Program-made: the position numbers and the translations under genes
DNA from: a bacterium
Lineage (GTDB): Bacteria; SZUA-182; DTGQ01
Reading direction: 5' to 3'
DNA length: 64,000 nt
Assembly (NCBI GenBank): GCA_040755755.1
Contig: JBFLZW010000017.1
Span: 49,497-113,496 of the forward strand
Shown here: positions 5,098 through 41,663 of the stretch, piece by piece
How the letters are laid out: each line of letters opens with the position of its first letter
Position numbering within the stretch: position 1 is the first letter of the stretch
Notes under the pieces: generated by a model
Told to the model about the DNA's origin: nothing
Database searches by the model: none
Seen by the model: the letters and a program-made list of their open reading frames with translations, nothing else

Positions 5098-7953
5098 ATG
5101 AGCAGGAAACCCAATACGATTCTCAAAAGCATCGTAGTACCGTTCTTACTGGTATTCATTACTCTTTTTCTGACCCACATCGGCATGCAGACCCAACTGA
5201 TGGACCGGGAACTGGACAGGTTTATCGCTCAAAGCGCTACCGGCATGATGAACATTATCTGGAATTACTTTGTTACTGAGGAAGTGAAGGAGCCGATGCG
5301 AAAACTGGCGTGCATGGCTGATTCCCTGCTGCCGGATTCCCTGGATACTGCCCTGAAAAACGACGTGGCTTTCTCCTGTCCCCTTCTTTCTTCTCAATGG
5401 GATACCCTCAAGCATGACCTTCTGCTGGATAATGTCCTGAATTATGTGGCCCTCTTCGACCGAAGCGGCAGGATGATCCTCCAGGAATCTTTCATGGCAG
5501 CACAGGAAAAGGAAAGCCATGACGAGTTCCGGAATCAGATCATGCAGCGGAAGGTGACGGCTGAAATTTTTGGCTTTGATAAGGCTCCTCATGCTTCTCA
5601 TTCCCTGGTTGCCAAAATGATCTTTCCCATCCGCAACCGCCGTGGAGGAATCCTCGGTTATATGGCAGCTATCCGTAACCTCGATAACCGGTTTTTTGAA
5701 AAGGTTCATCAACTGACCGGCCTTCACGTTCTGGTCTTCAGTGACGGGACGTCAGTTTTCAGTACCTTGCCGATTCACTCGGGAGAGCAGCTTGCGGTTC
5801 CTCCAAAGATCCGGGAAAAGGTCTACCACACCCATGGGCAGCCATCAGAGTCAGCACAGAGGGTGTTCATCCTCAATGACGAGTACCGGGCAGTTTCCTT
5901 TCCCATCGAGAACCTTCAGGGAGAAGCCATAGGGGCTCTCATGCTCCTGTGCAGTCTGGAGGGCAAAGAGCACAGCCTGAAAAAGATCGTCCTGAACCTG
6001 CTGTGGGCAAGCCTCATGGGAGGTATACTGCTCCTGTTTTTCGGATTTCTTATCAGCAGGGGAATCACTATTCCCATCAATCAACTGATTCAGGCTACCC
6101 GCTGTGTTTCAGCCGGAGATTTCGACACCAGGGCCGATGTCCAATCCCACAAGGAATTGATCACCCTCTCCCAGGCCTTCAATGGCATGACCGACAATTT
6201 AAAGCGAACATCGATTTCCCGGAACTATTTCCAGACTATCCTCGATACCATGAACGATCTGCTGATCATCGTTTCTCCCGACCGCAGCATCGAATTTGTC
6301 AATCAGACCACTGTGAACGTCCTGGGATATACCAGTGATGAGATGATCGGCAAATCGTTCGATCACCTTTTCCATCATGATTGCCCCTTCAAGGGGATGG
6401 ATTTTGAAAACATAGTTCAGAAGGAAGGAGGACAGGATAGCTCCTGCATCATGCTCACCAAAGCAGGAGAGACGATCCCGGTGAGCTTTTCCTGGTCAGT
6501 CATGCGGAATGAGAAAAACGATTTGACGCAAATTATCGGGATTGCCCGCGATATCCGGGAGAAGGCCGAAGCCGAGCAAAAGATCAGGGAGGAGCGTGAT
6601 AAGCTCAATACCCTGATTAATACTACCAACGACCTGATCTTTATCCGCACTCTCAAGGGGGAGATCACTTTTGTCAGCCATGCTGTTCATCGCATTCTCG
6701 GCTATTCCCCTGAGGAATTCAAAAGCCTTCCCCCTGAAAAAATCCTGAGCGCCAACCCCCTGAACCAGGCCTTCATTGAATCCCCATCCCGCTGGAGCAC
6801 CAGGAGTGAGAAGGCAGAGCCTTACTGGGTCGAATTTTTAACCAGTGATGGACGGCCAATTTTTCTGGAAATCAATGAGACCCCTCTCCAGGGCAAGGGA
6901 AATGAAATCACGCAGGTCATGGGAATCGGCAGGGACATTTCGGAGCGAAAGAGGCTGGAAGAACAGTTGCGGGAGTGGCATGAGAAACAGGCCAAAACAC
7001 AGCAGGGAATATGCCGGTTTGGCGACGTTATCGGCAAGAGCAGGAGAATGCAGGAAATTTATGATTTTATCCAGGTTGTTTCCCAGAACAACAGTACCGT
7101 CCTGCTCAAAGGAGAAAGCGGTACTGGTAAAGAGATGATTGCTCAATCCATTCATGACCATAGCCCACGGTGCAATTATCCTTTTGTCGAGGTGACCTGC
7201 TCGGTCCTGTCCGAGTATCTGCTCGAAAGCGAGCTTTTCGGGCATGTCAAAGGCGCATTTACCGGGGCCATCAAAGACAAGCAGGGGCGGTTCGAGCAGG
7301 CTAGCGGAGGCACCATCTTCCTCGATGAAATAGGCGATGTCAGCCTCAATGCCCAGATTAAATTGCTTCGGGTCCTCCAGGAGCGGGAGATTGTCCGGGT
7401 GGGGGGAGACGAGCGGATTAAGGTCGATGTCAGGATCATTGCCGCCACGAACAAAAACCTGGAAGAAGCTGTGGCCAGGGGAACTTTCCGCGAGGACCTC
7501 TACTATCGCCTCAACGTAGTGCCGATCGATGTTCCGGCCCTGCGGGAGAGAAAGGAGGACATTCCTCTGCTCGTGGAGCATTTTATCGCCAAGATAAACC
7601 AAAAGGTCGGGAAAAATATCATCGATATGTCTCAGAAGGCCGTGAATATACTCATGGAATATTACTGGCCGGGCAATATCCGCCAGTTGGAAAACGCTGT
7701 CGAATATGCCATCATCCGATGCCAGGGAGCACAAATCAAAGTCCAGGACCTCCCGGCGGAAATCCGAAACCAGAAAAAGGGGGAAAAAGCCTCAATGCAT
7801 GACCTGATCGCCAATACGGAAAAATCGGCCTTTCTTGAGGCACTCCAGGAATGTCAATGGGATTTGACCCAGACCGCCCAGCGGCTGAACATCAGCCGGA
7901 CCACGCTCTGGCGGAAAATTAAAAAGTACCGGATCGAAAGGCCGAGGGGGTGA
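5098..7953 (+). CDS. Membrane-bound sensor/sigma-54-dependent transcriptional activator (HAMP-PAS-PAS-AAA+-Fis)
   Basis: 951 residues. In order: a membrane helix (about 11-30), an extracytoplasmic sensor of roughly 260 residues, a second helix (about 300-320), HAMP, two PAS domains (about 375-500 and 505-620), a sigma-54 AAA+ domain with Walker A GESGTGKE, the ESELFGHVKGAFTGA loop that contacts sigma-54 and Walker B GGTIFLDEIG, and a C-terminal Fis-type helix-turn-helix (NISRTTLWRKIKKY). No histidine-kinase or receiver domain is present, so it likely couples an outside signal directly to sigma-54 RNA polymerase. It follows the metal transporter by 11 bp, suggesting a metal or envelope signal. 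Sigma-54-like promoters occur at 39288, 47414 and 50256 in this window; a link to them is inference. Confidence 0.9.
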   Translation: MSRKPNTILKSIVVPFLLVFITLFLTHIGMQTQLMDRELDRFIAQSATGMMNIIWNYFVTEEVKEPMRKLACMADSLLPDSLDTALKNDVAFSCPLLSSQWDTLKHDLLLDNVLNYVALFDRSGRMILQESFMAAQEKESHDEFRNQIMQRKVTAEIFGFDKAPHASHSLVAKMIFPIRNRRGGILGYMAAIRNLDNRFFEKVHQLTGLHVLVFSDGTSVFSTLPIHSGEQLAVPPKIREKVYHTHGQPSESAQRVFILNDEYRAVSFPIENLQGEAIGALMLLCSLEGKEHSLKKIVLNLLWASLMGGILLLFFGFLISRGITIPINQLIQATRCVSAGDFDTRADVQSHKELITLSQAFNGMTDNLKRTSISRNYFQTILDTMNDLLIIVSPDRSIEFVNQTTVNVLGYTSDEMIGKSFDHLFHHDCPFKGMDFENIVQKEGGQDSSCIMLTKAGETIPVSFSWSVMRNEKNDLTQIIGIARDIREKAEAEQKIREERDKLNTLINTTNDLIFIRTLKGEITFVSHAVHRILGYSPEEFKSLPPEKILSANPLNQAFIESPSRWSTRSEKAEPYWVEFLTSDGRPIFLEINETPLQGKGNEITQVMGIGRDISERKRLEEQLREWHEKQAKTQQGICRFGDVIGKSRRMQEIYDFIQVVSQNNSTVLLKGESGTGKEMIAQSIHDHSPRCNYPFVEVTCSVLSEYLLESELFGHVKGAFTGAIKDKQGRFEQASGGTIFLDEIGDVSLNAQIKLLRVLQEREIVRVGGDERIKVDVRIIAATNKNLEEAVARGTFREDLYYRLNVVPIDVPALRERKEDIPLLVEHFIAKINQKVGKNIIDMSQKAVNILMEYYWPGNIRQLENAVEYAIIRCQGAQIKVQDLPAEIRNQKKGEKASMHDLIANTEKSAFLEALQECQWDLTQTAQRLNISRTTLWRKIKKYRIERPRG

Positions 7954-38186: not shown

Positions 38187-38543
38187 TTATTCCGCAAGCG
38201 ACAGGAACAGTATCAAAAATACCAGGGTGCTTGGTGTAAGAGACAATGTGCCAAGTGGTGCAGCCGCGGTGACGACCGGAGTTGTGGGAGCCAGAATAAT
38301 AGTTGCCGCTGCAGTCCTGCTTGCTGCAGTTGGCAGTGCCAGGTATGGATCGAACAGCGGAGGAGCAAATACCGGAGCAGCCGGGAAATAAGGCACGGGA
38401 GGTACAAAGGCAAAGTATGGATCATAATACGGAGCAGGATAGGGAATAAATTGAGCGGAAACCTGTGTTGAAGTTAAAAAAATGACTGTTATGAGAAATA
38501 TAATAAGGCAACTCATAAACCTTACTAAGCTAAACTGCTTCAT
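38187..38543 (-). CDS. Array protein, short ATII-type (member 7)
   Basis: 118 residues. Signal peptide ending STQVSAQ, PY-rich region (PYPAPYYDPYFAFVPPVPYF), junction SRTAAATIILAP and a short tail (VVTAAAPLGTLSLTPSTLVF) ending LFLSLAE. Closely related to member 8. ATG 38543 has AAGGAGAAT upstream. Confidence 0.8.
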   Translation of the reverse strand: MKQFSLVRFMSCLIIFLITVIFLTSTQVSAQFIPYPAPYYDPYFAFVPPVPYFPAAPVFAPPLFDPYLALPTAASRTAAATIILAPTTPVVTAAAPLGTLSLTPSTLVFLILFLSLAE

Positions 38544-38663: not shown

Positions 38664-39035
38664 CTATTCTTCCAGGGACAGATAGAGTATTAAAAACACA
38701 AGGGTGGTTGGTGTCAGAGCCAGCGTTCCAAGAGGTGCAGCAGCAGTGACTACCGGTGCTGCGGGTGTTAGAATTATCGTTGCTGCCGCAGCACGGCTGA
38801 TAGGAGTTGGCAGAGCCGCCAGATATGGATCGAACAGGGGAACTGTAGGATAGAGAAGAGGAGGTGTAGGATACAATGAAATCGGAGGCAATGGAAGTGG
38901 ACTATAACCATAAAACGGGTCATAGTATGGCGATGGAAGAATCTGAGCAGAAACCTGGGTTGAAACAAGTAAAGCAGTAACCATGAAGAAAATAATAAGA
39001 CACGTTACATTTTTTCGTGAGCTAAATTTCCTCAT
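38664..39035 (-). CDS. Array protein, short ATII-type (member 8, first in the operon)
   Basis: 123 residues. MRKFSSRKN start with GGGAG upstream, signal peptide ending STQVSAQ, PY-rich region (PYYDPFYGYSPLPLPPISLY), junction SRAAAATIILTP and end FLILYLSLEE. It is the most upstream gene of the minus-strand array. No convincing sigma-54 element is seen on the minus strand before it; the nearby perfect one (39288) points away. Confidence 0.8.
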   Translation of the reverse strand: MRKFSSRKNVTCLIIFFMVTALLVSTQVSAQILPSPYYDPFYGYSPLPLPPISLYPTPPLLYPTVPLFDPYLAALPTPISRAAAATIILTPAAPVVTAAAPLGTLALTPTTLVFLILYLSLEE

Positions 39036-39287
39036 AGTATGAATCTCCCTTCCAGCTCAAGGTATGTGCCTGCCAAGGAATCACATCCAAGTAGGCAAAA
39101 CTTGAACACTGAAACATACCTTTGATTATTAATGGGACTGGAGCCAGAGGAACGATTATGCTTCCCCTCACTTTTCGTTTCTCAAGTTCTTCCTACTATG
39201 ACGGGAAAACATAAGTAATCCAACATCTTGCTAAGAGCAAAGAATGACTTCTCATTCAATCTTTGCTACCTCGGGGAAGCCATCCCC

Positions 39288-39303
39288 TGGCACATCTTTT
39301 GCA
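39288..39303 (+). promoter_or_regulatory. Perfect sigma-54 (-24/-12) promoter
   Basis: TGGCAC-ATCTT-TTGCA matches the consensus TGGCAC-N5-TTGCW at every defined position, with correct GG-to-GC spacing of 10 bp. It points to the plus strand, away from the PY-rich array. A transcription start is expected near 39314, exactly where a two-hairpin element with a T-run begins. Confidence 0.85.
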
Positions 39304-39313
39304 AAAATATGAA

Positions 39314-39408
39314 TTGCATACAAAAAGTTCCAGACTTTCTGTATGTAGCCTTAGGGGTCATCGGTATTGATAAGTTCGCGCCTTGAAAGTACCGGTGACC
39401 TTTTTTTT
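39314..39408 (+). ncRNA. Candidate sigma-54-dependent small RNA (about 95 nt)
   Basis: Starting about 12 bases after the -12 GC, the sequence folds into a first hairpin (CATACA-AAAG with CTTT-TGTATG, 39317-39345, loop TTCCAGA), a short single-stranded linker (TAGCCTTAGG), then an 11-bp terminator stem and eight T. Promoter, fold and terminator fit together and leave no room for a protein. It lies at the upstream end of the PY-rich secreted-protein array on the opposite strand, with about 250 bp between them. The targets are unknown. It matches no RNA family I recognise. Confidence 0.65.
39356..39408 (+). terminator. Rho-independent terminator
   Basis: GGTCATCGGTA (39356-39366) pairs with TACCGGTGACC (39390-39400) with one G-T wobble, followed immediately by TTTTTTTT. 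It is the strongest intrinsic terminator in the window. There is no plus-strand gene upstream other than the proposed RNA. Confidence 0.85.
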
Positions 39409-40862
39409 CGAACTCTTCTCTCAGAAACACCTCCTTGCTGAATGCTTGCCCTGAGATTCTACTATCCAGGAGTTAAATTGCAGGCAAGACAAGTGGGAAG
39501 TAATTTACTTGGATGAATATACATGCCGACCACTAATAAGAAGTATTCCTTAATCAACCTCCTTTCTCTGAAAATCTTTCCGGGCTGGTTTCTTAACTTC
39601 TCACCCCCTTTCGTTATTTTCATAACTGTCCATTTTTGAGCACCAATAAATACCCTAACAATATCACCTCTGTCTCTATCGTCCCGGGATCTTTCTGAGA
39701 TCCCGGATAACCTTACAGCAGATGGCTCTGCAAGTTCTCCAGCAACAGGTATCTTACTTAAATCGATACGAGGAGCGAACTATCTGTTTTAATTTCCTAT
39801 TGTCGAGGTATCTGGCAGAAAAAAAATGGAGCACTTGGATAAATATGAAATTGGTCAAGTTTTTTAAAAAGTTAAGAAATGTGATCATATCTCGTCACCG
39901 CTTAAATGTTAATGGGTACAATAAGAGATCCTCCAAGCCGAAACTATAAAAACCCGCAATGAGAAACCTGGAAATAGTATAGAAAAATACCGCTTCAGAG
40001 TTTCCCATTCTCTGGTTGAATAGGCTCTTTCGTCACTGAATAACAGTAAATTAACTTAACCTTTTGAATAGCTGGGGTGTAAAGCTGGGGTATCTGTTAT
40101 CAACAGATAATTCTCTATATACTACTAAATATACGAGAAATAATGATGGAAATTATCGCTCTCATACCCCGGTAACCTTGCCAATACCGGGAATTCTTAT
40201 GCAATATTCCCTCCTTGCCTCTGCCTTTGTAGGAAATGCAAATTCCATGCTCAAGTACAAAAGTTACGGAGAGTCCCGGTCTTTCCCTGGATAGTTCGTG
40301 CTGGTGTAACCTTAACCTATTGATTCAATATGCGTAATTTCCATCATCGAAGTCCGCTATATTTTTATCCTGGAGAGAGACTGCTGTCTCAAGTTCAAGC
40401 CAAGAACTGGTCCTTATAGTGCAGGTATGTAATTTTATGTACTTTCTTACACAGAGCATTAGATAACCAGAGAAACATTTATCGATTAACCATATGTTTA
40501 TAAATCGAAAACCTTTCCCCTCCCAGCTATGCATATTTTTGCATATATCATTCATCTTATGAATAGTATATGCAAACCGGGAACATGAGGAGAGCTCAAC
40601 CTTGAAAGTCCTTGGTGTTTCAATAGAAAATCTCCCAGTAAGGGGAATGCCCTGATTCATAGAACCTATGATCCTTCAGAAAAAGTAAGGAGGGACTTTT
40701 CAACTGATTGGGAAGGCAGATTCTGCCAAGCCTGCATAAAGGCGAAGATTCAGGAGGGAGAAATAAGGGAGAAATCAAGATGGTATGGGCAAAAAGCGAG
40801 GAACTTCCTGCCCATACCAGCGGTAAAACTTTGAGCCGCACAAAATCTTTTCACTAATACCG
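39409..40862. other. Gene-poor AT-rich region
   Basis: About 1.45 kb between the sRNA terminator and the DUF4412-like gene. Several frames of 75-110 codons exist on either strand (for example 39722-39949 plus, 40325-40660 minus), but none has a ribosome-binding site, domain pattern or neighbour that would support it. A 9-bp hairpin is at 39684-39706 (CCGGGATCT/AGATCCCGG). I see no repeats or tRNA. Confidence 0.45.
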
Positions 40863-41663
40863 CTACTTGTGAGCGCCTTTTCCCTGCTCAGGGGTATCTT
40901 TTTCCGGTACACCGGCTCCGCCGGGTTGGGCGGGACCGCTGCCCTTCTGCTCATCAGGCTGCGGGGATGCTTTCACCGCGTCCTTTGCCGCCAGATTCTC
41001 CCTCTTATACTCCGCCGGAATCTCAAACAGTTTCCTGTCGATTTCCTTTTCCTCCACCTTGACAAGCTTGGTGACCATATCGAGTTTCTTGTTCTGGGCA
41101 TCCATATGAACAGCAATCTCTACCGGATATCCGGGGTATTTGTTCAATTCACCAATGATTTTCTTTTGTCCAAAATAAACGGCCATTCTGGACCTTACTT
41201 CTGCGGGCATCTTGACCGCATCGCTGAGCCAGTACTCCACATCCGTGGTTACCCCCTTGGTGGTACTGGTCAGGATAACCTGATAGGCATCCCATTGGCC
41301 AATCTTTTTGGTTTTCCCCGTTTTTTTTGAGGATACCTGGATCTCTTTCTCAATGGCCGCAAATTGCGCTTTCAAATCAACCTCTTTTGCAATCTTCTCT
41401 TTTTCGTTGAGCTGATAGGCCTTGTCCTGGTCCATATAAATGAGCAAGACCGTATTCTTATCGCTTTCATTGAAATACCTTATCTTGTCCTGTTTTACCC
41501 ACATCTTCAGCGTGGAAGCAGGGGGGCCCGCTGGTTTGCCATCAATCAGGGTCTCGGTCTGCTTCTCAATGTAATAATCCCCTGCCCAAAGAGAACCTGC
41601 CAGAAAACCGGATATCATGCATCCTGCCATCAGACTCAAGACTAATATCCTCTTCAATTTCAT
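40863..41663 (-). CDS. Secreted DUF4412-like protein
   Basis: 266 residues. Signal peptide MKLKRILVLSLMAGCMISGFLAG. The mature part begins DYYIEKQTETLIDGKP and has the DUF4412 pattern of alternating strands: LKMWVKQDKIRYF then VLLIYMDQDKAYQLNEKEK, which in the family follows the modified outer-membrane lipoprotein-carrier (LolA-like) fold. The tail after residue 235 is Pro/Gly/Lys-rich and disordered. It probably works in the periplasm; no partner is known. It is isolated, on the same strand as the PY-rich array. Confidence 0.75.
   Translation of the reverse strand: MKLKRILVLSLMAGCMISGFLAGSLWAGDYYIEKQTETLIDGKPAGPPASTLKMWVKQDKIRYFNESDKNTVLLIYMDQDKAYQLNEKEKIAKEVDLKAQFAAIEKEIQVSSKKTGKTKKIGQWDAYQVILTSTTKGVTTDVEYWLSDAVKMPAEVRSRMAVYFGQKKIIGELNKYPGYPVEIAVHMDAQNKKLDMVTKLVKVEEKEIDRKLFEIPAEYKRENLAAKDAVKASPQPDEQKGSGPAQPGGAGVPEKDTPEQGKGAHK

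Follow-up and report, generated by a model that had tools for sequence, protein, structure and literature searches.

A conserved small RNA gene with a sigma-54 promoter beside a secreted-protein array, and its possible relatives in remote bacterial lineages

Small RNAs (sRNAs) driven by sigma-54 form an established, small class. GlmY of Escherichia coli is a stand-alone, envelope-linked sRNA with a sigma-54 promoter, and an overlapping sigma-70 promoter is also usable (PMC7073468). Qrr1 of Vibrio fischeri is a sigma-54-dependent sRNA under enhancer-binding proteins, SypG being also active in aggregation (PMC10162802). Pxr of Myxococcus xanthus is a stem-loop sRNA of ~108 nt with a predicted sigma-54 promoter (PMC5684412, PMC5568312), and CrcZ and NrsZ of Pseudomonas aeruginosa are RpoN-dependent sRNAs (PMC8395346). 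An earlier, sequence-only reading of the locus described here had named GlmY as the known example of a short RNA of this type, a statement that is too narrow in view of Qrr1, CrcZ, NrsZ, and Pxr. The locus lies in a stretch of bacterial DNA of 64,000 nucleotides (the window), and its RNA appears to resemble the sigma-54-driven class at the promoter, with no curated family matching it.

The small RNA gene and its conservation in the genus

The features of the locus are as follows, with G001 denoting the other genome of the genus that was compared.

39288-39303, plus strand: sigma-54 promoter of the -24/-12 type, TGGCACATCTTTTGCA, exact match with 0 mismatches
39314-39408, plus strand: predicted small RNA of ~95 nt, identified by its fold z-score and covariance-model matches
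39315-39347, plus strand: hairpin 1, UGCAUACAAAAAGU-UCCAG-ACUUUCUGUAUGUA, where conservation of the RNA is highest
39353-39403, plus strand: hairpin 2, the terminator stem, GGTCATCGGTA/TACCGGTGACC
39401-39408, plus strand: run of eight T, the intrinsic terminator tail
38187-38543 and 38664-39035, minus strand: the secreted-protein array genes closest to the RNA and divergent from it; open reading frames (ORFs) with signal-peptide-like starts; array at the same place in G001
40863-41663, minus strand: DUF4412 gene (PF14371) on the far side, transcribed towards the RNA; G001 orthologue 76% identical and at the same place

The promoter had been called consensus-perfect, and its match at 39288-39303 is indeed exact. 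The bare pattern (ten fixed bases plus W) occurs twice in the 64 kb, both strands included, versus ~0.06 expected by our own estimate. The predicted start is at ~39313-39314, 12 bases past the GC of the -12 element, and the two-hairpin segment begins at ~39314, at the distance that had been anticipated. The fold of 39310-39412 has a free energy of -36.5 kcal/mol (z = -5.0), and none of 200 shuffles was equally stable. Hairpin 1 is long and AU-rich with a small CCA-containing loop, and hairpin 2 is the terminator, whose stem has 13-16 pairs and is followed by eight T; the two hairpins and the T run proposed earlier were borne out, and the proposed 11-bp stem proved too short. The length of 95 nt and the finding that small ORFs are not conserved as coding agree with the transcript of about 95 nt without coding capacity that had been read from the letters. 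Rfam 15, with GlmY/GlmZ, Qrr, and the other curated sRNA families, gave nothing in the window that reached the gathering score; a relaxed search of the surroundings of the RNA (E up to 5) yielded chance-level matches only. A DNA similarity search of plasmids and phages gave no match.

Our comparison within the genus rests on one other genome, G001, in which a copy of the RNA gene that is 78% identical is present at the same place, with promoter, both hairpins, and terminator all kept. The G001 promoter (TGGCACTTACTTTGCA) retains every consensus position and differs in spacer bases only. Identity is high from the promoter to just past the T run and is at a background of ~50% on both flanks. The G001 copy folds with z = -5.8, and across the stems of the two sequences 59 of 59 cells pair; five pairs are changed on one side, all of them still standard pairs, and 13 paired positions of hairpin 1 are kept in both species. 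Gene order is also kept, with the secreted-protein array to the left and the DUF4412 gene to the right. The sequence-only reading had staked its case on conservation of the hairpins and promoter in relatives, and both are retained in G001; the covariance search that it proposed gave a match there and then in remote lineages. Conservation, structure, spacing, and the absent coding signal all back the call of a sigma-54-driven small RNA gene. By sequence comparison, we conclude that 39314-39408 is a real, conserved gene for a predicted ~95-nt RNA with promoter, two hairpins, and terminator.

The sigma-54 version of the gene was found in only two genomes. In two further genomes, G002 and G003, the array family was searched for and not found, and the contig of G004 breaks off 120 bp beyond the head of the array. 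A degenerate promoter-plus-hairpin pattern, run over 84,980 genomes, met only the same-genus contig and ten other matches, which were taken for chance, the covariance model R2 having scored none of the ten.

Remote matches and the extent of a proposed family

A first covariance model, built from the two copies (window and G001), was searched against 290 genomes and gave one further match, in G282, with 36.1 bits and E 2.5e-4 for that genome. The kinship of G282 to the window genome is at domain level only. We considered that the RNA could be a genus-specific sigma-54 sRNA and the remote matches in G282, G145, and G354 unrelated look-alikes, given that a stem and a GC-rich terminator are common among sRNAs. 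This explanation is plausible, although we rate it clearly below an even chance. It would agree with the presence of the RNA in just two of nine genomes from the class and with the first remote E-value, which is marginal over 290 genomes (expected count ~0.07). However, the likeness of the G282 RNA to that of the window argues against it. The G282 RNA begins GGGUGCAUACAAAAAGGCCCAUCCUUUUUGUGUGC and passes directly into the GGGCUAUCGGC terminator stem; the 5' arm of its hairpin 1 equals the window in 12 of 13 bases, with TGCATACAAAAAG and the loop CCA kept, as is ATCGG of hairpin 2.

A second covariance model of three sequences, from which the promoter was left out, was run on 386 genomes around G282. 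It matched G145, a genus-mate of G282, twice (9e-7 and 1.5e-5), and these two additional copies speak against chance look-alikes; G354, from another family, was matched at 6.2e-6, and two weak matches were also returned. In 0.56 Mb of sequence, chance matches reached 15.8 bits at most, versus 38-43 bits for the G145 and G354 matches. Among the weak matches, G374 (0.02) was dismissed for a score at chance level, and G053 (0.015), also with a chance-level score, was kept as doubtful. The remote loci had no match in Rfam at E up to 1.

All four remote RNAs (G282, two in G145, and G354) have a sigma-70-like promoter, TTGNCN-N17-TANATT, 7-12 bp before hairpin 1; the individual elements are TTGACT/TATATT, TTGCCT/TATATT, TTGCCA/TATATT, and TTGACT/TAAATT, each with a 17-bp spacer. 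The different promoter class of the remote copies favors a genus-specific sRNA, as does the lack of a common sequence in the loops of hairpin 2. These promoters were absent from the second model and therefore provide independent support for genuine sRNA genes with the same start. The RNA is preceded directly at hairpin 1 by a promoter of its own in every case, of the sigma-54 type in two genomes and the sigma-70 type in four loci. The remote matches retain the stem motif YAYCRGY of hairpin 2, and the sequence around this motif shows compensatory changes. In a seven-row alignment, 16 of 29 pairs were changed on both sides and pairing was kept in 97.4% of cells, with controls far lower; this alignment was fitted to the structure and therefore supports the fold more than kinship. 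The 5'-arm bases equal to the window number 17-22 of 29, above nearly all pair-shuffled controls, in matches that were preselected for likeness; even with this selection bias, the shared bases count against unrelated look-alikes.

The proposed family (window, G001, G282, G145, and G354) has in common the two-hairpin layout, the arm of hairpin 1, and covariation, in an alignment that leans towards structure. Taken one by one, the G282 and G145 RNAs are somewhat more likely than not to be true relatives of the window RNA; for G354 the balance tips slightly the other way, and a true relationship of the G053 match is unlikely. Homology of the RNA across lineages is likely from these comparisons, and what we describe is likely a sparse, so far undescribed sRNA family with a sigma-54 promoter in the window genus and a sigma-70 promoter elsewhere.

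Sigma-54 promoters and the secreted-protein neighbors

The strict sigma-54 pattern TGGCAYNNNNNTTGCW occurs 75 times in the genome versus 6 times in a reversed control, an excess that is similar across the class, and the genome encodes ~34 full enhancer-binding domains. Among the 75 sites, only the RNA promoter is followed, at ~115 bp, by a strong terminator and by no gene. Folding of six further sites poor in genes gave nothing that resembles a second compact sRNA of the same build. Many of the other sites lie in front of pilins, enhancer-binding proteins, PEP-CTERM proteins, and secreted proteins rich in Tyr, Gly, and Pro. PEP-CTERM surface proteins are known to be under sigma-54 control elsewhere (PMC9850573), which fits the setting of this genome.

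A palindrome, TATGAA-N6-TTCATA, is common to ~20 of the 75 promoters, mostly 150-190 bp upstream. Its sites lie upstream of L021, L103, L109, L119, L126, L141, and ~14 other loci, many of them before secreted Tyr/Gly/Pro-rich proteins, and this distribution makes it a likely enhancer site through which a single master activator would control surface proteins. We rejected the RNA promoter as a member of this set, the palindrome being absent there in both species, and its activator is therefore probably a different one. Comparison of the window with G001 upstream of the RNA promoter showed no conserved dyad that could serve as an activator site. The window also encodes a membrane sensor (5098-7953, plus strand) in which dCache, HAMP, and PAS domains are fused to a sigma-54 activator and a Fis-type DNA-binding domain; it is a possible activator of local sigma-54 promoters. 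Elsewhere in the genome, locus L144 (C87:14863-18162) has two strict sigma-54 promoters in tandem, 284 bp apart, the first of which is followed at 231 bp by a strong hairpin with a T run, and possibly represents a second, longer sigma-54 RNA.

Synteny between the RNA and the array is present in both species of the genus, and the remote RNAs have comparable surroundings. The gene from which the G282 RNA is directed away encodes a protein of 1532 aa with a C-terminal signal for type IX secretion (T9SS). In G145, one copy is directed away from a protein of 1144 aa whose C-terminus is similar to that of the G282 neighbor, and the second from one of 477 aa that has a PepSY domain and a start resembling a signal peptide; T9SS-signal proteins adjoin both G145 copies on the other side too. 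A secreted-protein gene is thus behind three of the four remote RNAs (G282 and both in G145), as with the window RNA, and the neighbor in G354 is a bifunctional-nuclease-domain gene. The doubtful G053 match is directed away from an alkaline phosphatase that has a T9SS signal. These positions are suggestive of an RNA family placed beside secreted-protein genes.

Pairing of the RNA with the translation starts of the array genes in both species gave p-values as expected by chance over 48 tests. The best array pairing, of loop UUCCAG with the ribosome site of the first array gene (p 0.06), is not conserved, and a duplex scan with the whole RNA was dropped, the long interactions being meaningless. 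The window array has no sigma-54 promoter of its own. A paralogous secreted-protein array elsewhere in both species has a conserved sigma-54 promoter, TGGTATRAAGGTTGCA, pointing inward (L156:11663 minus, L157:9741 minus). The regulatory link to extracellular-protein production that had been suggested is a positional argument (synteny and the probable remote relatives); the lack of significant or conserved pairing, of a sigma-54 promoter on the array, and of the palindrome speaks against it.

The divergent position of the RNA at the array head could also mean that it acts in cis, antisense to an array-mRNA leader starting upstream of 39410. We consider this improbable, as no minus-strand sigma-70 or sigma-54 promoter was found in window positions 39000-39700, and the remote matches show the same layout with different sequences. 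Still less probable is that the RNA is part of a longer transcript, either as a leader or attenuator for a downstream gene or through read-through: the 1.4 kb of intergenic DNA downstream does contain further conserved blocks, but no downstream plus-strand gene is conserved in both species, the terminator is strong, and the next gene is on the opposite strand. Conserved blocks of non-coding sequence lie at 40050-40110 and 40530-40565, on the way from the RNA to the DUF4412 gene (e.g., GAATNGCTGGGGTGTAAANCTGGGGTATCT and TATGCATNTTTTTGCATAT), and were not matched by Rfam. Three plus-strand boxes resembling CCTCCTTT (39427-39436, 39554-39565, and 39600-39610), ribosome-site-like on the minus strand, have similar counterparts in G001 and no convincing start codons behind them. 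A small protein gene, as a peptide in the transcript or as the antisense ORF at 39266-39430 (minus strand; 52-54 codons, open in both species behind AAGGAGGTG), is highly improbable, since the substitutions in that ORF at codon positions 1, 2, and 3 (3, 10, and 11) show no third-position bias and several indels break the frame, so that it is not coding, its GTG start sits inside ribosome-site-like sequence, and the hairpin arms are the best conserved parts; this substitution pattern and the indels led us to exclude coding in either sense or antisense.

Proposed action and comparison with known systems

We favor, with moderate confidence, a free-standing sigma-54 sRNA gene, probably of a wider family, that most likely acts in trans on mRNAs of secreted or surface proteins. 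As the promoter and terminator sequences suggest, one of the ~34 enhancer-binding proteins would activate sigma-54 RNA polymerase, which would start at ~39314 and stop at the intrinsic terminator at 39408. The RNA would then act in trans, its exposed loop and linker pairing with mRNA or a protein being bound, and the genomic position points to mRNAs of secreted or surface proteins as targets, whose production the sigma-54 signal would adjust after transcription. First contact with the target would most naturally be made by the small loop of hairpin 1 (UUCCAG in the window, UCCCAA in G001, and CCCAU in G282); bases resembling an anti-Shine-Dalgarno sequence are not shared by every copy. Hfq (PF17209) was not found in the 97.6% complete genome, by a search whose control was positive in 5 of 14 known genomes, and a different chaperone, or none, would therefore be involved. 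We conjecture that the RNA may relay to the window array, which lacks a sigma-54 promoter, the same sigma-54 signal as the paralogous array would receive through its own promoter. The fullest version of this proposal, an undescribed sRNA family across lineages that lies beside and regulates secreted- or surface-protein genes and whose promoter class was switched between sigma-70 and sigma-54, is put forward tentatively and may well not hold in full.

Bacterial sRNA families have mostly been described in a small number of culturable groups and seldom extend across phyla. If the wider family is true, an sRNA across unrelated uncultured lineages, always with a promoter of its own and in most cases next to secreted-protein genes, would offer a handle on post-transcriptional surface control without a recognizable Hfq, and this undescribed RNA family may tune what cells display on their surface. 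If a conserved sRNA has indeed changed promoter class, this would make a clear example of regulatory rewiring, in which the same RNA responds, in one genus, to a different signaling system. Even an RNA confined to the genus would extend sigma-54-driven sRNAs beyond the groups in which they are known.

Compared with the window RNA, CrcZ (407 nt) and NrsZ (226 nt) are much longer and differently built. Pxr has three stem-loops and adjoins its own sigma-54 response regulator, whereas the window RNA has two hairpins and no sigma-54 activator gene beside it. Qrr RNAs work with Hfq; Qrr1 and the window RNA are both of the sigma-54 type, but here no Hfq gene and no Rfam match were found. Like GlmY, the window RNA is stand-alone with a sigma-54 promoter, without a sequence or structure match between the two in the Rfam searches. 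In GlmY the sigma-70 and sigma-54 promoters overlap, whereas here the two classes would be found in different lineages.
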